From positions 1 through 25,399 of IMG/VR virus record IMGVR_UViG_3300030329_000137: a stretch of 25,399 bases of DNA. The stretch is one strand, 5' to 3'. The notes beneath the pieces were generated by a model, which was given only the letters and a program-made list of their open reading frames with translations, did not search any database and was not told the origin of the DNA. Position 1 is the stretch's first letter, and the number at the start of each line of letters is the position of its first letter. Shown here in pieces: positions 6,172 to 21,626 of this stretch. The stretch comes from a virus. The translations under genes and the position numbers were made by a program.

Positions 6172-6371
6172 ATGAAGAACTATTCAAGTTAACAAAGGAC
6201 CAGTTCAGAGAATGGGATACCTTTTGTACAGAGAATGGTGCAGAGATGTATAAGAATAAAGATACTTATTCTATTGTACACTCAGCTACTTCTGATACAT
6301 ATAATTTATATGTAGATTCAAAAGAGCAATCAGGAATAATAAATTTCTTGAATAAATTGCTTGCATCGTAG
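6168..6371 (+). CDS. hypothetical 67-aa protein
   Basis: ATG at 6168 with AAGGAG upstream. The product has an N-terminal helix (EELFKLTKDQFREWDTFC), then strands (YSIVHSATSDTYNLYVD) and a C-terminal helix. The last codons contain the -35 element of the promoter at 6361-6389. No family recognised. Confidence 0.55.
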   Translation: MNEELFKLTKDQFREWDTFCTENGAEMYKNKDTYSIVHSATSDTYNLYVDSKEQSGIINFLNKLLAS

Positions 6372-6389
6372 AATTAGATGTGGTATACT
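6361..6389 (+). promoter_or_regulatory. strong sigma70 promoter with extended -10, upstream of SSB
   Basis: TTGCAT (6361-6366), 17-bp spacer, TATACT (6384-6389) preceded by TGG. The last ten bases match the 1167-1195 promoter (GATGTGGTANACT). The predicted start near 6396 coincides with the first base of a stem, as expected for a designed leader. Confidence 0.8.
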
Positions 6390-6395
6390 GCTTGC

Positions 6396-6557
6396 ACTCA
6401 AAGACATGACCTTAATATTAAAGGCAATTTCCTTGAGTCATTAAGTAGCTATGCCCTCTATCTCCATCCTCCTCAAGGTGCTACTTAATTCAGTTATCTG
6501 AGGTGATGGGGCAACTGGCTCATAGCCCCAACTCGAAAGAGTTAGCTATGGTTTTTT
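6396..6557 (+). ncRNA. switch-like leader or small RNA (about 160 nt) before SSB
   Basis: It runs from the predicted start of the 6361 promoter to an intrinsic terminator. One fold has ACTCAA (6396-6401) with TTGAGT (6433-6438), and ATTAAGTAGC (6440-6449) with GCTACTTAAT (6480-6489), ten perfect pairs. A competing stem is CCTTGAG (6431-6437) with CTCAAGG (6472-6478), which conflicts with the first and crosses the second. A small hairpin, TTCAG/CTGAG, follows at 6490-6502. TGGGGC (6507-6512) with GCCCCA (6525-6530) then competes with the terminator stem. Mutually exclusive pairings ending in a terminator are the hallmark of an attenuator or riboswitch, though a free-standing small RNA fits too. 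No known class was recognised. Confidence 0.6.
6521..6557 (+). terminator. intrinsic terminator in the SSB leader
   Basis: CATAGC (6521-6526) pairs with GCTATG (6545-6550), and AACTC (6530-6534) with GAGTT (6539-6543), closed by a GAAA tetraloop, with a small internal loop between them. Six T follow at 6552-6557. It stands between a strong promoter and the SSB start, so read-through must occur or be regulated for SSB to be made from that promoter. Confidence 0.8.
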
Positions 6558-6587
6558 ATAATACTGTTAAATAACAAGGAGAAAAAT

Positions 6588-7001
6588 ATGGCAGTACAAG
6601 AAGGAACTGCGTATTGGGCAAGTATTAAAACACCTAATACCAGATTTGAACCAGTATTCACAATCAACCTAGTGGTTGACGAGGATACTGCAAATGATTT
6701 TGCGTCAAGAGGACACACAATCAAACAACTTGATGAAGGACCATCAATAGTTATCAAGAGAAAAGTTAACGGACCAAATGGAATGGTCAGACCTGCACCT
6801 AGATTACTGGATGCAGACAAACAAGAAGTTAACTATTCAGTTGGTAATGGTTCTAAAGTCAAGGTTCAGTATAACGAGTACGAAGGCGAGAATAAGTTTG
6901 GACCTTATAAAGGGTTGGACTTACAAGCAGTTCAAGTGCTTGACCTTGTTGAGTATCGTTCCGAAGACGGAGCTGAATTACTTGACGGGGAGGAATTCTA
7001 A
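6588..7001 (+). CDS. T7 gp2.5-like single-stranded DNA-binding protein
   Basis: The 137-residue protein resembles phage OB-fold SSBs of the T7 gp2.5 type. It has an N-terminal strand region (GTAYWASIKTPNTRFEPVF), a middle IKRKVNGPNGM and the segment VQYNEYEGENKFGPYKGLDL. The acidic tail ends EEF: in T7 gp2.5 the acidic C-terminus with a terminal Phe contacts polymerase and helicase, and the same arrangement is seen here. It is shorter than T7 gp2.5 (232 aa). The start has AAGGAG 7 bases upstream. It opens the replication module and sits directly behind the switch-like leader 6396-6557. Confidence 0.75.
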   Translation: MAVQEGTAYWASIKTPNTRFEPVFTINLVVDEDTANDFASRGHTIKQLDEGPSIVIKRKVNGPNGMVRPAPRLLDADKQEVNYSVGNGSKVKVQYNEYEGENKFGPYKGLDLQAVQVLDLVEYRSEDGAELLDGEEF

Positions 7002-7303: not shown

Positions 7304-7338
7304 GAGGGCAGGTAGTAGTGGCTTGCCCTCATTTTTTT
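7304..7338 (+). terminator. intrinsic terminator after the SSB pair
   Basis: GAGGGCA (7304-7310) pairs with TGCCCTC (7324-7330), seven perfect pairs with a 13-nt loop, followed by A and seven T (7332-7338). It separates the SSB unit from the primase-helicase gene and would reduce downstream expression relative to SSB. Confidence 0.85.
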
Positions 7339-7351
7339 ATGAGGAGGTTAT

Positions 7352-12574: not shown

Positions 12575-12862
12575 ATGGAATATAAATTTAACGAAAAAAA
12601 TATACTAGAACAGATACAGAGGTATGTAGATGGAACATACGAAAGACATTACGCACAAGGAAAGTATCAAGCAACTGATATGATTATAGATGCAGGACAC
12701 GGTAAAGGTTTTTGTATGGGTAACATTATGAAGTATGCTATGAGATGTGGTAAGAAAGATGGGTCAGATGCAGAGATGGACTTACTTAAAATTATTCACT
12801 ATGCTATAATAGCTATAGCCTTAGAAGATACTAAGTATCATTTAGGAGACACGAATGACTGA
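12575..12862 (+). CDS. DUF3310 protein (related to part of T7 gp1.7)
   Basis: 95 residues with the DUF3310 pattern: HYAQGKYQATDMI, then FCMGNIMKYAMRCGKKDG, then a helix with DLLKIIHYAIIA. DUF3310 is found in T7 gp1.7, a nucleotide kinase that phosphorylates dGMP and dTMP, and in many small phage proteins. This copy is too short to infer full kinase activity. Its position immediately before NrdA (8-base overlap) supports a role in dNTP supply. The start has AAGGAG upstream. Confidence 0.7.
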   Translation: MEYKFNEKNILEQIQRYVDGTYERHYAQGKYQATDMIIDAGHGKGFCMGNIMKYAMRCGKKDGSDAEMDLLKIIHYAIIAIALEDTKYHLGDTND

Positions 12863-14732
12863 GGAATATTTAGGAATTCAAATAGATTATAGTAAGGATA
12901 GTAAACTTGATAAGTTTAGTATTGATACATTAAAGGACAGATATTTTTGGGCAGAAGAAGAAAGTCCTCAAGAAGCTTTTGCAAGAGCAGCCGTATTTGC
13001 TGCTACTTACAAAGGACATATAGATTTTAATTTAGCACAGAGGTTATATAATTATGCATCCGATCATTGGTTTATGTTTAGTACTCCTATACTTAGTAAC
13101 GGAGGAACAACTCGTGGGCTTCCTATCAGTTGCTTTCTCAATTACGTACCTGATTCGAGGGTTGGTCTTTCTGATCACTATGATGAAAACATATGGCTCG
13201 CAAGTTCAGGTGGAGGTATCGGTGGATATTGGGGAGATGTTAGGAGTGATGGCATTTCAACTGGTAATGGTTCTCGTTCTACTGGTTCAATCCCCTTTAT
13301 GCATGTCGTAGATTCAGAGATGCTTGCCTTTAATCAAGGCACAACAAGACGAGGAAGTTACGCAGCCTACTCAGATATATCTCACCCTGAGATTGAAGAG
13401 TTTATTAATATGCGTAGAGCATCAGGTGGTGATATAAATCGAAAGAACTTAAACTTACATAATGCTGTTAACATTACTAATGAATTTTTAAAGTGTGTTA
13501 GAGATGATGAAGAGTGGAGGTTGATTGATCCTAAAACTAACGAGCCTACTAAGGTAGTTAATGCTAGAGAGTTATGGATGAAACTAATTGAGGCACGAGC
13601 AGAAACAGGTGAGCCTTATCTTATTAATATAGATACTTGTAATGAGGCTTTACCTGACGAACAGAAAGATTTAGGTTTAGAAATTAAACAGAGCAACTTA
13701 TGTTCTGAGATTACTCTACCTACTAATGAAGAGAGAACTGCTGTGTGTTGTTTGTCAAGTGTTAATTTAGAATATTTTGACAAGTGGAAAAAAGATGAAC
13801 AATTTATAGATGATTTAATTACAATGCTTGACAATGTATTAGAACATTTTATTGAAGACATAGTAGATACATCTAGACTAGGTGGATATACTGCAAATTT
13901 TAAGAGGTTTAAAACTTATGTTAAAGAAGGTAAAGAAGGTATGGTCAAAGCTGCTTACTCAGCTTATAGAGAAAGGTCGATTGGTTTGGGAGCAATGGGA
14001 TTCCATGCGTATCTCCAAAGTAAAGGATTATCTTTTAATGGGTTACAACAAACTGGTATTAATAATACAATCTTTTCTTACATCAAAACCGAAGCTGTTA
14101 CAGCAACTCAAAGACTCGCTGAGATACGTGGTGAAGCTCCTGATGTACATGGTAGCAATAATCGTAACTCTCATCTTCTCGCTGTTGCTCCTAATGCCAG
14201 TTCTAGTATTATATGTGGTGGCACTTCCCCTTCTATTGAACCATATCGTGCTAACATATATACGCACAAAACTCTCTCCGGTAATTACAAAGTTAAAAAT
14301 AAATTCTTAGAAAAGTTACTTAAAAAGAAAGGATTAAATGTAGAGGAAAGAGAAAAAATTTGGAGAGAAATTTCAAATGAAAGAGGTTCTATTCAAAATA
14401 TTAAAATATTTAATAAAGATGAAAAAGAAATATTTAAAACTGCTGATGAAATAAATCAATTACAAATTGTAGAACACGCAAAGATTAGACAGCCTTACAT
14501 CTGTCAGAGTCAAAGTGTTAATTTATTTTTCGTTCCTCCTAAAGCAACAGAGGATCAAGAAGTACACAATGAATACTTACAATATGTAAACGATGTGCAT
14601 TGGTATGCGATGCATAATTTAAAATCTTTATATTACTTACGATCAGATGCAGCAAAGTCTGCTGAGAATGTAAATGTAAAGATACCAAGAATTAATTTAG
14701 AAGATGTTGAATGTTTAAGTTGCGAGGGTTGA
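12855..14732 (+). CDS. nrdA: ribonucleotide reductase class I alpha subunit
   Basis: 625 residues that reduce ribonucleotides to deoxyribonucleotides together with NrdB. Visible motifs: FSTPILSNGG, redox Cys C93 (SCFLN) paired with C298/C299, and the catalytic N281-L-C283-S-E285. Also present are APNASSSIICGG, the radical-transfer pair LYYLRSD near 592 and the C-terminal CLSC that accepts electrons from thioredoxin or glutaredoxin. The sequence begins just before the catalytic domain, so the N-terminal ATP-cone of E. coli NrdA (761 aa) is missing; loss of dATP feedback inhibition is expected. ATG at 12855 has AGGAG upstream. The beta subunit follows after three intervening genes. Confidence 0.95.
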   Translation: MTEEYLGIQIDYSKDSKLDKFSIDTLKDRYFWAEEESPQEAFARAAVFAATYKGHIDFNLAQRLYNYASDHWFMFSTPILSNGGTTRGLPISCFLNYVPDSRVGLSDHYDENIWLASSGGGIGGYWGDVRSDGISTGNGSRSTGSIPFMHVVDSEMLAFNQGTTRRGSYAAYSDISHPEIEEFINMRRASGGDINRKNLNLHNAVNITNEFLKCVRDDEEWRLIDPKTNEPTKVVNARELWMKLIEARAETGEPYLINIDTCNEALPDEQKDLGLEIKQSNLCSEITLPTNEERTAVCCLSSVNLEYFDKWKKDEQFIDDLITMLDNVLEHFIEDIVDTSRLGGYTANFKRFKTYVKEGKEGMVKAAYSAYRERSIGLGAMGFHAYLQSKGLSFNGLQQTGINNTIFSYIKTEAVTATQRLAEIRGEAPDVHGSNNRNSHLLAVAPNASSSIICGGTSPSIEPYRANIYTHKTLSGNYKVKNKFLEKLLKKKGLNVEEREKIWREISNERGSIQNIKIFNKDEKEIFKTADEINQLQIVEHAKIRQPYICQSQSVNLFFVPPKATEDQEVHNEYLQYVNDVHWYAMHNLKSLYYLRSDAAKSAENVNVKIPRINLEDVECLSCEG

Positions 14733-14733
14733 T

Positions 14734-15471
14734 ATGGAATTAAATACAGACGAATTAAATTTACAAGTACATAATTTACCTGCCGTTGTAATGTTAGAAT
14801 GTACTGTACCTCCAAAGTTAGTGGATGATATTAATACTTACTTAGATGAATATAGAGAGACAGCCGAAAAGAAATCTCTTGCTCATACTTTAGTTGGTCA
14901 GATTCATCAAGGAGAACAACTCTTAATGGATCACAAGCATGAACTATTAAGAGATTACTATACGTTTCTTACCTCTATGGGAGTAGCTTACTTACAAGCT
15001 TTTGGAAATATAACAGGACACTATCATAAAAATAGAATGGTAGATATAGATGAATTGTGGTCGGTACATAGTTATGAAGGAGACTATAATCCTATACATG
15101 ATCATGGTACTAAAACAATTATGGGTATATCTACAACTACATGGACTAAAGTACCTGAACAAATAGGTAAGCTTGGTAATAGTATGAAGAATCCTGAGAC
15201 ATTTACATTGTATAATGATTCAGGAGCTTGTGATGGTTTCTTAGCATTTACTTATGGACGTAATGAGATTATGAATACAGAAAAATTAAGACCACCACAA
15301 TCTATATCAGTAGAGCCTGTAGTAGGAAAACAATTAATGTTCCCTTCGTGGATGCAACATATGGTGTATCCTTTCTTTGGTGAAGGAGAACGAAGAACAG
15401 TAGCTGCTAACTTAAACTGTTGGCAAGCAGAACCACAAGGAGAAAAGAATGAAGACAGTAAGTCAAGGTGA
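14734..15471 (+). CDS. putative 2OG-Fe(II) oxygenase
   Basis: 245 residues resembling phage 2-oxoglutarate/Fe(II) dioxygenases of the cupin-like fold. The segment YNPIHDHGT (H122, H124) supplies the first metal ligands, and MQHMVYPF (H209) the distal His. RRTVAAN (R220/R221) is placed to bind 2-oxoglutarate. The first pair is H-x-H rather than the classical H-x-D, as I recall for several phage members. The substrate is unknown: DNA bases, proteins and small molecules are all possible. The gene sits one base after nrdA inside the RNR operon, and its last 23 bases overlap the next gene. Confidence 0.65.
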   Translation: MELNTDELNLQVHNLPAVVMLECTVPPKLVDDINTYLDEYRETAEKKSLAHTLVGQIHQGEQLLMDHKHELLRDYYTFLTSMGVAYLQAFGNITGHYHKNRMVDIDELWSVHSYEGDYNPIHDHGTKTIMGISTTTWTKVPEQIGKLGNSMKNPETFTLYNDSGACDGFLAFTYGRNEIMNTEKLRPPQSISVEPVVGKQLMFPSWMQHMVYPFFGEGERRTVAANLNCWQAEPQGEKNEDSKSR

Positions 15472-15673
15472 TACCCTATATGAAAGTAAGTATGATGCAC
15501 TTACAAAACTATACGAAGGACAGGTAGCTGTAGCTAAAGCAGAGTTACTTGTTTACTTCTCAACCTCAGTAGGTGTAGCAGAACACCCTGAATTAATTAC
15601 TTCAATGGATAATTTAATGGATAAGTTAACTGCTGCTGAAGAGAAACTTAAATCATTACAGGATAACTTCTAA
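15449..15673 (+). CDS. hypothetical 74-aa helical protein
   Basis: ATG at 15449 with AAGGAG 8 bases upstream, inside the oxygenase gene. The product is helical: KYDALTKLYEGQVAVAKAEL, then VGVAEHPELI, then a coiled-coil-like LTAAEEKLKSLQ. The 'VGxxEHP' turn between two helices recurs in small proteins of marine T4-like phages as I recall. Function unknown. TAATG overlap with the next gene. Confidence 0.65.
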   Translation: MKTVSQGDTLYESKYDALTKLYEGQVAVAKAELLVYFSTSVGVAEHPELITSMDNLMDKLTAAEEKLKSLQDNF

Positions 15674-15849
15674 TGTCAGATACATATAGAAGTTTTTGCA
15701 CCCGTATGTGGTTGGACCATTGTGATGAAAACTCAGCCTTCGGTGCAATTGCATTAGACAGAGAAGAATATATAAAAACATATAACAGTTGGCTACTTCA
15801 AAAGTATGCTGAACAAGTGGAGAAAAGAAATGAGTCTATTGAGCTCTAG
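15673..15849 (+). CDS. hypothetical 58-aa protein
   Basis: TAATG junction start. The product begins MSDTYRSFCTRMWLDHCDEN, is rich in aromatic residues, contains two Cys and one His near the N-terminus, and ends with a charged helix. It overlaps nrdB by 20 bases. No family recognised. Confidence 0.5.
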   Translation: MSDTYRSFCTRMWLDHCDENSAFGAIALDREEYIKTYNSWLLQKYAEQVEKRNESIEL

Positions 15850-16828
15850 AAATTATTACAAACCTTTTGATCATCCTTGGATGTATGATTACTGGGATTT
15901 ACAAACACAAATGCATTGGTCTCACAATGATATACCATTGTCAACTGATGTAAAAGATTGGAATACTATTTCAGATAGTGAAAGAAATTTATTAACACAA
16001 ATATTTAGATTGTTTACTCAGTCAGATGTTGATGTAGGTTCAGCTTATGTCAATACATTTATGAGAATATTTAAGAAGCCTGAAGCAGGTTTAATGATGG
16101 GTGCGTTTCATCATATTGAAGGCATACATCAAGCTGCATATAGTGCACTATTAGATACAGTAGGTATGCCTGAAATAGAATACAAAGCCTTTGCTGAGTA
16201 CGAAGAGATGGCTAATAAACATGAGTATATTCAAAAGTTTAAACCAACTCTTAAAGATAAGAAAGGAATAGCTAAAGCTCTTGCAGTCTTCTCAGCTTTT
16301 ACAGAAGGCTTACAATTATTCAGTAGCTTTGCAGTCTTGTTAAACTTCCCTCGCTTTGGTAAGATGAAGAACATGGGACAAGTAATAGCCTACTCAATAC
16401 GTGACGAGAGCTTACATGTTGAGGCAATGACAAGACTATTTAGAGAGTTCATACAAGAGAACATTGAGATATGGACCGATGATTTTAAGAAAGAACTATA
16501 TCAGATATGCAGAGATATGGTAGAGTTAGAAGATAAGTTTCTTGATCTTGTATTTGAGATGGGAGATTTAGAAGGTCTAACAAAAGAAGATATGTATGCT
16601 TACAATAGATACATAGCTGATAGAAGATTATTACAATTAGGATTAAAAACAAACTACGACCAAAGAGAGAACCCTCTAACATGGATAGATGAAGTGATTG
16701 GTATTGAACATCAAAACTTCTTTGAGGGTAAGGCAACTTCGTATATGAAGTCAGGGTTAAGAGGAGAACATGGAAGTATAACTTTTACGGATATAAAAAA
16801 TGAGAAAGAACGAAGCAACCTTGATTAG
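15830..16828 (+). CDS. nrdB: ribonucleotide reductase class I beta subunit
   Basis: 332 residues. The start is placed at ATG 15830 (MSLLSSRNYY), with GGAG about 8 bases upstream; ATG 15806 has no site. Di-iron ligands match E. coli NrdB spacing: D66, E97, H100 (IEGIHQAAY), E159 (FTEGL), and E193 and H196 (RDESLH). The radical Tyr is Y104, at the Tyr122 position, so this looks like a normal tyrosyl-radical enzyme, not a metal-free or Mn/Fe variant lacking Tyr. It supplies the radical to NrdA. The end overlaps the next gene by 29 bases. Confidence 0.95.
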   Translation: MSLLSSRNYYKPFDHPWMYDYWDLQTQMHWSHNDIPLSTDVKDWNTISDSERNLLTQIFRLFTQSDVDVGSAYVNTFMRIFKKPEAGLMMGAFHHIEGIHQAAYSALLDTVGMPEIEYKAFAEYEEMANKHEYIQKFKPTLKDKKGIAKALAVFSAFTEGLQLFSSFAVLLNFPRFGKMKNMGQVIAYSIRDESLHVEAMTRLFREFIQENIEIWTDDFKKELYQICRDMVELEDKFLDLVFEMGDLEGLTKEDMYAYNRYIADRRLLQLGLKTNYDQRENPLTWIDEVIGIEHQNFFEGKATSYMKSGLRGEHGSITFTDIKNEKERSNLD

Positions 16829-17045: not shown

Positions 17046-17474
17046 CTAAGATATTTTAATCTTACGAGGTTTCTTTTCGTCAGGGATAATTATTTCCATG
17101 ACAACAGAAAGCAAACCATTCTTAAAGGAAGCTTTCTTAACTTCAATATCTTCAGCTAAGTTAAAGCTCCTCTTAAAAGAACGCATGGCTAATCCTTTAT
17201 GGATTACCTCTTCATCTTTATCCTCTACCTTTTCATACGAAATAGTCAGAACATTCTCTGCCACTTCGACATCAATATCTTTATCAGTCAAACCGGCTAG
17301 TGCCATTTCTATTGTGTAATTGTCACCATCCTTTACAAGATTGTAAGGTGGATAACTTGGTGGGGAATATTGCAGTCCTTGATGTTTGAATAACTCGTTG
17401 AAGAGTCTATCAAATCCTACAAATGAGGTTGTGAAATTTGGATGTTTTAAGTCCAAAAGAAATTTGCTATTCAT
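17046..17474 (-). CDS. Hsp20 small heat-shock chaperone
   Basis: 142 residues. The N-terminus VGFDRLFNELF (19-29) is typical of IbpA-type proteins. The alpha-crystallin domain spans about 41-130, with MALAGLTDKDIDVEV, NVLTISY and the signature NGLL at 119-122. The C-terminal I139-K-I141 is the I-x-I motif that drives oligomer assembly. Such ATP-independent chaperones bind unfolding proteins; phage versions are known in cyanophages and may help virion protein folding. ATG at 17474 follows AAGGAG on the minus strand. It has its own promoter region (17505-17540) and faces the RNR operon. Confidence 0.9.
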   Translation of the reverse strand: MNSKFLLDLKHPNFTTSFVGFDRLFNELFKHQGLQYSPPSYPPYNLVKDGDNYTIEMALAGLTDKDIDVEVAENVLTISYEKVEDKDEEVIHKGLAMRSFKRSFNLAEDIEVKKASFKNGLLSVVMEIIIPDEKKPRKIKIS

Positions 17475-18114: not shown

Positions 18115-20454
18115 TTAAAAAACTCCATCCCTCAAATCCGGTTGTAAAGCTTTCATGGTAGTTAAAGTATTCAAATTATCTCCTGCTAGTTTATAAAAAG
18201 CGTTAATGTTATCATCTATTTTTACATCAGTATAGATGGCTCTAGGTTCATACCAATTAGTTTGTTTAGGTATGTCCCTTCCATAGTAATCTGTAAAGCC
18301 TGCGTTGTATCCTAAGTAAGCTACAAATACAGACTGATCACCGTACTCTCCTGTTTCTTCTTGAGAAGCTTGTGCTTGCTCTTGTTGTTCTTGTAAATTC
18401 TGTGCTACAATTTGATCGGCAACTTGGTCAGCTTCAGAAGGTGTACTAACTTCAGACATTGCTGTATCTATTTGTCCTTGCATATCTTGTACCTGTGTCT
18501 CAACTGTAGCAACTTCAACGGATACTTCAGTTGTTGGCATCGGTGAAGATGTTGTAGTTACATTACTTACTGATCCTGTATCAGCACTCATGGATAAGAT
18601 CGTATTAGTTTGTACAGATGCAGCAGTAAACTGATCCGATAGACTTGGAGAACTACTAGTACTAAAACTACTTCCACTTGATGAAGAAGCTACAGCACCA
18701 CTAACTCCTGATCCACCACTTCCACTTGACGAGCCTCCATAAGATGATGAAGCTCCTCCTGATGCTCTAGTATTACCTGTTGCATGAACAGACGTTCCTG
18801 CTGTCGTACCACTCACACTATTAGCAGCAGCTTGAACTGTACTAGCTACTACGTTGAGGGCTGTCTCCATATTCATTGAGCTTCCCTCTTCTCTGTCTAC
18901 TAACAAACCAACAACATCTGCCTCTTCTGACTCTTCGAGAAGTGCTTCTTCTTCTGCTTCTGCTACCCACTCTTCTTCGAGCTCTTCGTAGATTTCTTCA
19001 ACGGCTTCTTCCTCGAAGATTTCTTCTTCGGCTTCGGCATATAATTCTTCAGTTTCTTCTTCGCTGCCTTCATGCTCTTCTTGGATTTCTTCCATCTCCT
19101 CTTCAAACCATTCTTCAAGTTCTTCAAAGTCCTCGAAAGCCAAGTAGTTTTCTTCTTCGTCATAAGGTAGCTCCTCTCTTATTATAGTTTCAAACTCATA
19201 GAGTTCTGTTAAGTCTTCAGCATCAAATATTTCTAGATGCTGTATTGGTTCATATTGTTCTTCGTAGAATACAAACTCTTCTTCGTAATCATAAGTCTCT
19301 ATATATTCTATAAAATCAATTGTTTCTATATATGGGTCTTCCCAAAGTAATTCTTCTTCAAACCAAATCTCTTCCTCAACCCATGCGTAATCTTCTTCAA
19401 ACCAAATATCTTCTTCGTATCCGTAGTCATCTTCCCAAACAAACTCTTCTGTTATACCATAACTATCAGTAGTATGTTCGTCTTCATAACCATAATCAAA
19501 CTCTTCTTCGTATCCGTAATCAAATTCTTCTTCAATATAATAAGCTACTGAAGCCTCTTGTGTATAACCTGCACAGAACGGAGCATACTGTGGGTCTTCT
19601 TCACATTGTTGGTCATCATAAGCTTCCCAATATAAAGGACATGAAGTACTATGTAATGCATTTATACCACATTGCTGTGCTAAATAAGCTGCTGCATATC
19701 CTGAACAACTAGAATTATTTAAAGGATCACTACAGTCTATAGCATTTCCTGATCCTTCTCCATATAAACTACCACCATCTTCTAGTAAAGTATTACTAGC
19801 TGTACCATTCCAATTAGTGTTAACACATGTACCTGCAACATTAGTTGTACCTGTGTTACATTCATCGTGAAAAAGGTACGTATAGATTTCTGTTGCACTT
19901 CCTTGTTCTCCAATTAATACATCGTGGTTGGTGATATTTAAATCTCCATACCTATATTCAAAGGTATCATTAGTCCAAAGGATAACTTCAAAACTATTGT
20001 CAGTATTATTCCTACCATACTCTTTCATGTTATACCAACCAAAGACAGCTTTATCCGTAAAGTTTTTAGCAAGCATCTTTGAACCACCATCCCTAATTAA
20101 ATCAGTATAAAAAGGATATAGAGTATAGTTAGTATGTGGTAGTGGATCAGGTGTATAATCTCCACAATAGTTATTGTAGTTTACATTACCTGTTCCTAAT
20201 CCAAAATGAAGACAACCATTAGTAGCCATCCTAGCAGATGTAAAGTCTTCACCATATAAAGTAAACGTAAAGTCTAAATTAAAAGCACCTGCTAATTGAT
20301 CATCACCTGTATTAAAATTAGTAGTACCAGTAAGACTAGTTAAATTAAAAAGGTCTTGGTCAGCTTCATATACATATGCTGAATTACCTTTAGCTGCAAA
20401 AAAGAGAGCAGCAATTGACAATGCAGTTGCACATATAATGCTAACCTTGTTCAT
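18115..20454 (-). CDS. large secreted acidic protein with nidogen-like N-terminus
   Basis: 779 residues in clear blocks. (1) Signal peptide 1-26 (ALSIAALFFAAKGNSA). (2) Residues about 30-200 resemble a nidogen-like domain (FTLYGEDFTSARMATNGCLHF, then LYPFYTDLIRDGG). (3) Two exact-length 22-residue Cys repeats: C250 and C262, C272 and C284, then C294, each C-x-x-Y-x-x-AY-x-x-QQC. (4) An extremely acidic tract at 305-525 with FDYGYEEE and IWFEE repeats. (5) A Gly/Ser linker at 560-605. (6) A C-terminal domain, about 700-779, containing YLGYNAGFTDYYGRDIPKQ. It starts by TAATG coupling to the upstream gene. It could be a virion adhesin or a protein displayed on infected cells; no catalytic motif is seen. 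Confidence 0.75.
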   Translation of the reverse strand: MNKVSIICATALSIAALFFAAKGNSAYVYEADQDLFNLTSLTGTTNFNTGDDQLAGAFNLDFTFTLYGEDFTSARMATNGCLHFGLGTGNVNYNNYCGDYTPDPLPHTNYTLYPFYTDLIRDGGSKMLAKNFTDKAVFGWYNMKEYGRNNTDNSFEVILWTNDTFEYRYGDLNITNHDVLIGEQGSATEIYTYLFHDECNTGTTNVAGTCVNTNWNGTASNTLLEDGGSLYGEGSGNAIDCSDPLNNSSCSGYAAAYLAQQCGINALHSTSCPLYWEAYDDQQCEEDPQYAPFCAGYTQEASVAYYIEEEFDYGYEEEFDYGYEDEHTTDSYGITEEFVWEDDYGYEEDIWFEEDYAWVEEEIWFEEELLWEDPYIETIDFIEYIETYDYEEEFVFYEEQYEPIQHLEIFDAEDLTELYEFETIIREELPYDEEENYLAFEDFEELEEWFEEEMEEIQEEHEGSEEETEELYAEAEEEIFEEEAVEEIYEELEEEWVAEAEEEALLEESEEADVVGLLVDREEGSSMNMETALNVVASTVQAAANSVSGTTAGTSVHATGNTRASGGASSSYGGSSSGSGGSGVSGAVASSSSGSSFSTSSSPSLSDQFTAASVQTNTILSMSADTGSVSNVTTTSSPMPTTEVSVEVATVETQVQDMQGQIDTAMSEVSTPSEADQVADQIVAQNLQEQQEQAQASQEETGEYGDQSVFVAYLGYNAGFTDYYGRDIPKQTNWYEPRAIYTDVKIDDNINAFYKLAGDNLNTLTTMKALQPDLRDGVF

Positions 20455-21542
20455 TAGTTACTATGAAATTCTTTCTCACAAGTATGTCTTGATTTCTTTT
20501 TACCTTTAGCGTTACGTGTCTTTTTACATTTACTTAAGAATTTATTTCTATGTTCTTTGTAGTCAGGTCTATCAGTTTTGTTTTCTTTCCATCCTTTAGC
20601 AGCTTCTTTACCTACCTTACCCATGTAAGGACAAGGAGTACCTGCCATTTCCATAGCTTGAAAAACTCTCTTGTCTTGGCAAAGTATTCCAACTGAAGCA
20701 ACTTTCATACCTGTATCATATAGATACTTAGAAAGTTTTAACCTTTCACAGTTTTCGTCTCTTACTGTTCTACCTGTTGATATACCAAAGACCTGTCCTT
20801 GGAATGCTCCTGATCTACCAACAGTACAAAGGTCTTGTGAATAAGACATGATACTTGGTGCGATTGCAGAAGCAGGAGGAGCTTTACTAGTTATCTCCTG
20901 TTTGATTGTCTGAGTAGAGTTACTCTGATTGATGTTTCTGTTTGTGTTATCAGATGTAGTATTGTTATTATTTTGATTAACATTATTCGTAGTTACATTT
21001 GATTCAGATTCAGATTTATTAATGTTTGTATTTGTATTAGTGTTTGTGTTGTTTGAAGTACTATTATTAGTATTAACATTAGTGTTAGTACTTGTACTTG
21101 TATTGTTATTATTTACAGTCTGATTAACTGTAGAGTTTACAGTTGATGTAGCTGTTGAAGTACTAGTGTTAATGTTTGTATTAGCATTAGTATTTGTATT
21201 AGTATTATTAGATGTAGCGTTTGTTGTCGCTGTTGAAGTGTTTACGTTAGTGCTATTGTTTGTATTCGTATTTGTGTTCGTATTAGTATTGGTATTAGTA
21301 GCAGTAGACGTATTAGTATTTGTATTAGTATTGGTGTTAGTATTCGTATTGGTATTAGTATTAGTATTCGTGTTAGTATTTGTATTGGTATTAGTATTTG
21401 TGTTAGTCGTAGTCGTAGTATTAGTTGTCTCTAAACTATTTTGCTCACAATATTGTTCCCCTGCTGTACAGTTACCTGTTTGTTCTCCATATACTAATAT
21501 GGGTAACATTGATAAAAGTAGTGCTCCTAATACTTTTTTCAT
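20454..21542 (-). CDS. secreted Thr-Asn repeat protein
   Basis: 362 residues. The start is set at ATG 21542 (MKKVLGALLLSMLPILVYGE) because GGAG lies 6 bases upstream and it gives a clean signal peptide; ATG 21566 adds eight polar residues without a site. Residues about 38-225 are low complexity, dominated by Thr-Asn dipeptides with a pure run of more than 15 TN units. The C-terminal 130 residues form a Cys-containing domain (DLCTVGRSGAFQGQVFGIS, then ERLKLSKYLYD and GTPCPYMGKVGKEA) ending in a Lys-rich tail. This domain resembles C-termini of unnamed marine phage proteins, but I cannot name a family. It is coupled to the acidic secreted protein downstream. Confidence 0.75.
   Translation of the reverse strand: MKKVLGALLLSMLPILVYGEQTGNCTAGEQYCEQNSLETTNTTTTTNTNTNTNTNTNTNTNTNTNTNTNTNTNTNTNTSTATNTNTNTNTNTNTNNSTNVNTSTATTNATSNNTNTNTNANTNINTSTSTATSTVNSTVNQTVNNNNTSTSTNTNVNTNNSTSNNTNTNTNTNINKSESESNVTTNNVNQNNNNTTSDNTNRNINQSNSTQTIKQEITSKAPPASAIAPSIMSYSQDLCTVGRSGAFQGQVFGISTGRTVRDENCERLKLSKYLYDTGMKVASVGILCQDKRVFQAMEMAGTPCPYMGKVGKEAAKGWKENKTDRPDYKEHRNKFLSKCKKTRNAKGKKKSRHTCEKEFHSN
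20900..21430 (-). repeat. low-complexity Thr-Asn microsatellite in coding sequence
   Basis: On the minus strand the DNA is a tandem array of ACN-AAY codons, purest at about 21306-21430 and degenerate further toward the gene's 3' side. Synonymous third positions vary (ACA/ACT/ACG, AAT/AAC), so the peptide repeat is more regular than the DNA, which argues for selection on the protein as well as slippage. Confidence 0.75.
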
Positions 21543-21626
21543 TCTATCTCCATTTTTAGGGTGCATTATCCCTGTGAAGCTAACAATAGCATTCTTTTTA
21601 ATTTCCTCTTCAGTTTTTAGTAGTGG

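Follow-up and report, generated by a model that had tools for sequence, protein, structure and literature searches.

The leader of the ssb gene in virus record IMGVR_UViG_3300030329_000137 contains a conserved RNA domain. On comparison with related leaders, nucleotides 6435 to 6530 are better described in this way than as the set of competing hairpins put forward in a preliminary description of the same DNA. The domain is a four-way junction with no unpaired linkers between its helices (P1 to P4), to which a pseudoknot (P5) is added. It is almost certainly a real conserved RNA structure, and defines a family of phage leader RNAs that is new with respect to the libraries searched. Very probably it acts in cis to control ssb, which is the best reading because the element is linked exclusively to ssb, has its own promoter, occupies the extreme 5' end of the transcript and has a fold that is kept by compensatory changes. 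The whole of the DNA analysed, positions 1 to 25,399 of the record, is referred to here as the window, and the stretch studied within it is 6396-6557. Leaders were compared in a sample of 80 IMG/VR contigs with the closest ssb genes. The core GCCCU..AUCUCCA is present in nearly all of these leaders, which fall into two branches. Branch 1, which includes the window, is made up of leaders with a terminator (1a) and leaders with other 3' hairpins (1b); branch 2 is the larger. The features of the window locus are as follows.

6361-6366 and 6384-6389, plus strand: sigma70-type promoter, TTGCAT-17-TATACT with TG at the extended -10 (from the sequence)
6396-6401 / 6433-6438, plus strand: P0, a 5' hairpin occupying the 5' strand of P1, in branch 1 only (minimum free energy structure)
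6435-6439 / 6517-6521, plus strand: P1, GAGUC/GGCUC, which closes the four-way junction (compensatory change in branch 1, RNAalifold in branch 2)
6440-6449 / 6480-6489, plus strand: P2, 10 bp (covariation in both branches)
6453-6466, plus strand: L2, the loop GCCCUCUAUCUCCA with core GCCCU...AUCUCCA (nearly invariant, with few changes in element-bearing ssb leaders)
6490-6493 / 6498-6501, plus strand: P3, a small hairpin (covariation in both branches)
6502-6504 / 6514-6516, plus strand: P4, 3 bp in the window and 5 bp elsewhere, the loop of which contains the 5' strand of P5
6507-6512 / 6525-6530, plus strand: P5, UGGGGC/GCCCCA, the pseudoknot stem between the P4 loop and the strand 3' of P1
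6521-6526/6545-6550, 6530-6534(GAAA)6539-6543 and T6 at 6552-6557, plus strand: intrinsic terminator (from the sequence)
6558-6587, plus strand: AU-rich leader with the ribosome-binding site AAGGAG (from the sequence)
6588-7001, plus strand: ssb, encoding a T7 gp2.5-type single-stranded DNA-binding protein of 137 aa (PHROG and structure match)

Two alignments were used to examine the fold. Alignment A2 consists of 32 branch-2 leaders aligned with MAFFT, three leaders misaligned by the program and one more having been left out, and a hand-drawn structural model was tested on it. The branch-2 helices are P1, GAGY/RCUC; P2, of 4-9 bp; P3, a small hairpin; P4, NAACU/AGUUN; and P5, GAGAG/CUCUC. In A2 93.8% of the cells were paired, compared with at most 47% in controls with the model slid along the alignment, and changes to both sides of a pair were observed in 76 cells compared with 21.5 in shuffles; the model was drawn from the very sequences tested, trimming of the 3' ends at P5 makes that helix easier to align, and the cells are not independent events. 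P5 was paired in 96.9% of its cells and contained three double-changed pairs, as did P4 in this branch, and the changes in P1 were one-sided only. RNAalifold, used de novo on A2, returned P1, P2, P3 and P4; pseudoknots are outside its scope. Alignment A4, made separately from 15 branch-1 leaders, supports the same junction, with 93.8% of cells paired, nine double-changed pairs and at most 51% pairing in the slid controls. Here P1 shows compensatory change, P4 a change from G-C to A-U, and P5 is paired with no double changes. A covariance model built from A2, ie with no branch-1 sequence in its training, scored 27.7 bits at 6433-6530 of the window (E 0.004 in a search of 616 kb). The helices covary in two separate branches, each tested with its own controls. 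Folding of the window region also beats its shuffles (z -2.96, with 0 of 200 shuffles better). P4 and P5 together form an H-type pseudoknot with, in branch 2, a first loop of about 2 nt, no nucleotide between the 5' strand of P5 and the 3' strand of P4, and a last loop that contains the P1 strand. The invariant 14-nt loop L2 looks like a dedicated binding site.

Covariation in homologous leaders had been named in the preliminary description as a check on its proposals, and compensatory changes are indeed found in helices of both branches. Its 10-bp stem is P2, which covaries among the relatives. The UGGGGC/GCCCCA pairing is also conserved, and has compensatory changes in branch 2, but as a pseudoknot stem and not as the simple hairpin proposed. 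Of the two pairings said to compete for the same strand, ACUCAA with UUGAGU (P0) is in the sequence and in most of branch 1, but is confined to that branch; CUCAAGG (6472-6478) with CCUUGAG (6431-6437) is in the sequence but is not conserved beyond the closest relatives. A single coaxial pseudoknot made of the latter pairing and the 10-bp stem was rejected, because the coordinates would leave a sterically impossible 2-nt linker and the pairing is not conserved. P1, P3, P4, the pseudoknot role of P5 and the invariant loop of P2 are additions to the earlier picture.

The covariance model found the element in 78 of the 80 ssb leaders, with E values of about 1 to 2 for the weakest. One of the two leaders missed (L023) is on a truncated contig, and in the other (L020) the helices can be made out by eye. 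All credible matches lie directly upstream of ssb, including those in loci fetched by a P4/P5 pattern and not through their ssb, and each of the 16 carrier records searched has one credible copy. A candidate second copy on the minus strand of L059 (21 bits) was rejected, being antisense to predicted frames and having many of its pairs broken; further such candidates were weaker than this one. An exact-pattern scan of viral contigs with the 14-mer GCCCTCTATCTCCA gave further ssb leaders and many unrelated matches, and the structured ones were all 5' of ssb. The many exact matches in unrelated, unstructured sequence mean that the motif alone is insufficient, and it was discarded as a diagnostic.

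Among 50,697 phage records the nearest ssb genes are those of HTVC115P, 104P and 103P, and no similar leader DNA was found in any of the records. The covariance model found no copy in HTVC104P, and the ssb genes of the cultured relatives (HTVC103P type) are without one. None of 80 relatives of the HTVC103P/104P type has the element, the promoter there running straight into a short G-poor ssb leader, nor has any of eight intermediate relatives, whose ssb is 62-68% identical to that of L020. Rfam 15 gave no match in the window at its cut-offs, and a search at E up to 1 with the window locus and six relatives gave two sub-threshold chance matches only, to caiA and sR2. No earlier description of this fold or of its linkage to ssb was found in the open-access literature; one may exist elsewhere. 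One phage-like contig, placed by binning in the Candidatus Pelagibacter MAG MED605, carries a copy of the element with its ssb gene (L514:4051-4148), and a SAR11 host for the carriers is tentatively suggested.

The gene at 6588-7001 was assigned as ssb because its product matches PHROG 112 (gp2.5-like SSB, E 1e-6) and because the closest PDB structures to its AlphaFold model (pLDDT 83) are T7 gp2.5 (1je5, E 9e-7) and the Enc34 SSB (5odj, E 4e-6). The order of the replication operon is ssb, a small gene, primase-helicase and DNA polymerase. A terminator-like hairpin, GAGGGCAGGTAGTAGTGGCTTGCCCTC followed by ATTTTTTTAT, is located at 7304-7340, just 5' of the primase-helicase gene, and is a possible second control point of the ssb operon. 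Elsewhere in the window are genes for the large (12855-14732) and small (15806-16828) subunits of ribonucleotide reductase, and, lying between the two, a 2OG-Fe(II) oxygenase-like gene; none of these genes (12855-16828) carries the leader RNA described here. On the minus strand there are a gene for an Hsp20 small heat-shock protein (17046-17474), a 779-aa frame with a Glu/Tyr-rich middle (18115-20454) and a 370-aa frame with a long Thr-Asn repeat (20454-21566).

The position of the extended -10 promoter places the predicted start of transcription near 6396, in agreement with the earlier claim that the transcript begins on the first base of the 5' stem. That promoter had been called strong. In the window only 3 of the 6 positions of the -35 match the consensus, which is below the rule for listing in the promoter scan, but the relatives have a full or near-full TTGACA-17-TATAAT at this site. 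A promoter score of at least 9 was obtained for 88% of 87 leaders, compared with 23% of random windows. The distance from the start to P1 is 5-8 nt in most of branch 2 and 23-44 nt in branch 1, where P0 fills the gap. A further promoter-like sequence, TCGAAA-18-TATAAT (10/12), is found at 6533-6562, inside and after the terminator; the promoter scan overall gave no excess over shuffles.

The tetraloop terminator of the preliminary description is present in the window. The hairpin at 6521-6557 (-12.8 kcal/mol) is stable and stands directly before a U run, the arrangement by which an intrinsic terminator is recognised, and its upper stem covaries in branch 1a (AACUC/GAGUU, AACCC/GGGUU, AACUU/AAGUU). 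Branch 1b has no U run, and in branch 2 the situation is mixed. The terminator has base 6521 in common with P1, and bases 6525-6526 and 6530 in common with P5; formation of one fold thus precludes part of the other. Nearest-neighbour energies, which have no pseudoknot term, are -46.6 kcal/mol for the fold with P0 and the terminator and -33.5 kcal/mol with P1-P4 forced, ie the terminator state is favoured by about 13 kcal/mol. In most branch-1 leaders P0 has a better energy than most of its shuffles, but support for it is only moderate, because its pairing with the P1 strand is not above shuffles. An attenuator in the window's branch is plausible from these features. The earlier proposal that ssb is controlled in cis by premature termination fits this branch, but most of the family is without this terminator, and attenuation would therefore be a branch-specific output and not the common function.

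In branch 2, 30-51 nt of almost G-free RNA separate P5 from the start codon. The G content of this spacer, with the ribosome site left out, is 3.8% compared with 14% in other leaders (p 3e-8). TTAA and TAAA are commoner than in control leaders and TTAAA is rarer; by minimum free energy, the AU-rich spacer shows no less structure than other leaders. Leaders composed almost wholly of A, C and T, such as AACAATTAACAATAACAATAAAGG, also stand between promoter and ssb in HTVC103P-type loci (L286, L297, L332 and others), which have no such RNA; G makes up 2.5% of these leaders at -35 to -13. It seems that ssb genes of this family as a whole avoid G in their leaders. As relatives without the RNA also have a G-free leader, it is no specific evidence for a pseudoknot/spacer pair. 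The start of the spacer is T-rich in 21 of 45 branch-2 leaders, and termination may occur there in about half of the branch. In one sub-branch (L038, also L042-L064) the ATG that overlaps P1 (at about 377) opens a frame of about 39 codons (MSNQ..QALYLQ..), which runs the length of the RNA and ends just before the ssb ribosome site. A leader peptide is possible in that sub-branch. As a family feature it was rejected: the start codon and frame are not kept in other branch-2 leaders, and therefore it is the RNA that is conserved rather than the peptide.

Structured leaders that control phage ssb genes are already known in T4-type phages. In T4, gp32 represses gene 32 by binding to a leader pseudoknot and to the less structured, AU-rich ribosome site (PMC535899, PMC3014915). 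The gene 32 operator of T4 and RB69 has in common with the present element its position in an ssb leader and a pseudoknot some tens of nucleotides 5' of the start codon (PMC535899, PMC3014915). With branch 2 it may also have in common AU-rich RNA that spans the ribosome site and contains UUAA/UAAA elements. Because branch 2 keeps this order of parts, autogenous control by SSB is our leading guess: by analogy, we give an even chance to the leader being an operator that SSB binds, lowering ssb expression. SSB as the effector is likewise given about an even chance, and was preferred to a metabolite because the element was found before no other gene. The T4 pseudoknot has neither a four-way junction nor an invariant 14-nt loop, whereas the element here has both; the regulator in T4 is gp32, and here it would be an SSB of the gp2.5/Enc34 type by fold and PHROG; and in the window's branch a terminator lies in the stretch proximal to the ribosome site. 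The resemblance to the T4 operator would be one of convergence; there is no sign of common ancestry.

If SSB is the effector, the leader RNA at the start of the transcript of the ssb-led replication operon would set the output of ssb, and SSB in excess of the single-stranded DNA to be covered would bind it and reduce further ssb expression. In most of the family SSB would act on translation, since the pseudoknot precedes the 30-51 nt of almost G-free RNA in the manner of T4 gene 32. Only limited cooperativity on single-stranded DNA has been described for gp2.5-type SSB (PMC5686142), and therefore the cooperative spreading of the T4 system may not apply. In the window's branch the domain would act on transcription. 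The folded domain would correspond to read-through, because the junction and pseudoknot use bases 6521, 6525, 6526 and 6530 of the terminator stem, and loss of the fold, with formation of P0 and the terminator, would correspond to a stop. For branch 1a we infer that a helix-destabilising SSB would unfold the domain and favour the terminator, giving negative feedback.

Another candidate pseudoknot RNA, STAXI, is often found near genes for SSB and other DNA-handling proteins (PMC2864571). It consists of two or three pseudoknots in tandem, whereas the element described here has a single pseudoknot in one junction domain and no Rfam match. Autogenous leaders of ribosomal-protein genes are similar in that a structured leader is tied to one gene family, and different in that the protein here binds single-stranded DNA. 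We know of no natural RNA target mimicry for the ssb element.

A small-molecule ligand is possible, and is the main rival to SSB. The junction and invariant loop would then bind a molecule that signals the state of replication or of the nucleotide pool, and the fold would turn ssb expression on or off, through antitermination in the window's branch; we regard such a riboswitch as conceivable but on the whole improbable. The covarying, aptamer-like domain is conserved and is joined to what has the architecture of an expression platform. As in riboswitches with a terminator platform, the conserved fold of the window's branch shares bases, in P1 and P5, with a downstream intrinsic terminator, and the output differs between branches as it does in riboswitch families. 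The loop is invariant, and by the predicted energies the terminator prevails unless something stabilises the fold, a preference that fits a ligand-activated fold equally well. However, riboswitches differ from the element in that it is linked to a single gene: ssb alone follows all credible matches, and no metabolic-pathway gene does, the phage's own ribonucleotide reductase genes among them. That the element is a new class of ligand-binding regulatory RNA, so far found only before ssb in uncultured marine phages, which senses a replication-state molecule and switches the replication operon, is likewise judged unlikely.

It is more doubtful again that the RNA is a passive structured 5' end which, with no effector, shields the mRNA from degradation or keeps the ribosome site accessible. 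Its place at the very 5' end of the transcript and the G-poor stretch downstream would suit such a role, but an invariant 14-nt loop, four conserved helices and a pseudoknot are superfluous for protection alone, and the relatives with a promoter and G-free leader manage without the element.

The preliminary description had offered a free phage RNA of 160 nt as an alternative. In the window's branch the promoter and terminator would indeed yield a discrete RNA of about that size, and the loop, invariant and rich in pyrimidines, could base-pair with a partner. A small RNA released from the ssb promoter, or a transcript from it that primes or regulates replication, is nevertheless very unlikely. 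There is no conserved terminator hairpin after the element in branch 2, or anywhere outside the window's branch, which argues against a free 160-nt RNA as the general function, and the element is always directly 5' of ssb. With up to 3 mismatches allowed, the window contains three complementary matches to the loop, including the site itself, where a mean of 1.0 is expected; none is convincing. GC skew follows the gene strand and gives no origin signal at 6.4 kb. Finally, pairing of the invariant loop as an anti-Shine-Dalgarno sequence with the ssb ribosome site is highly improbable: AUCUCC can pair with GGAGGU or GGAGA, but the loop is no more complementary to the ssb site (-9.1 kcal/mol) than to the ribosome sites of other genes (-9.5 kcal/mol, p 0.53).

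Cis-acting control of ssb, with SSB itself as the leading guess for the effector, is the reading we prefer. The carriers of the element appear to be common ocean phages related to the phages of SAR11, in which the control of gene expression is hardly known.
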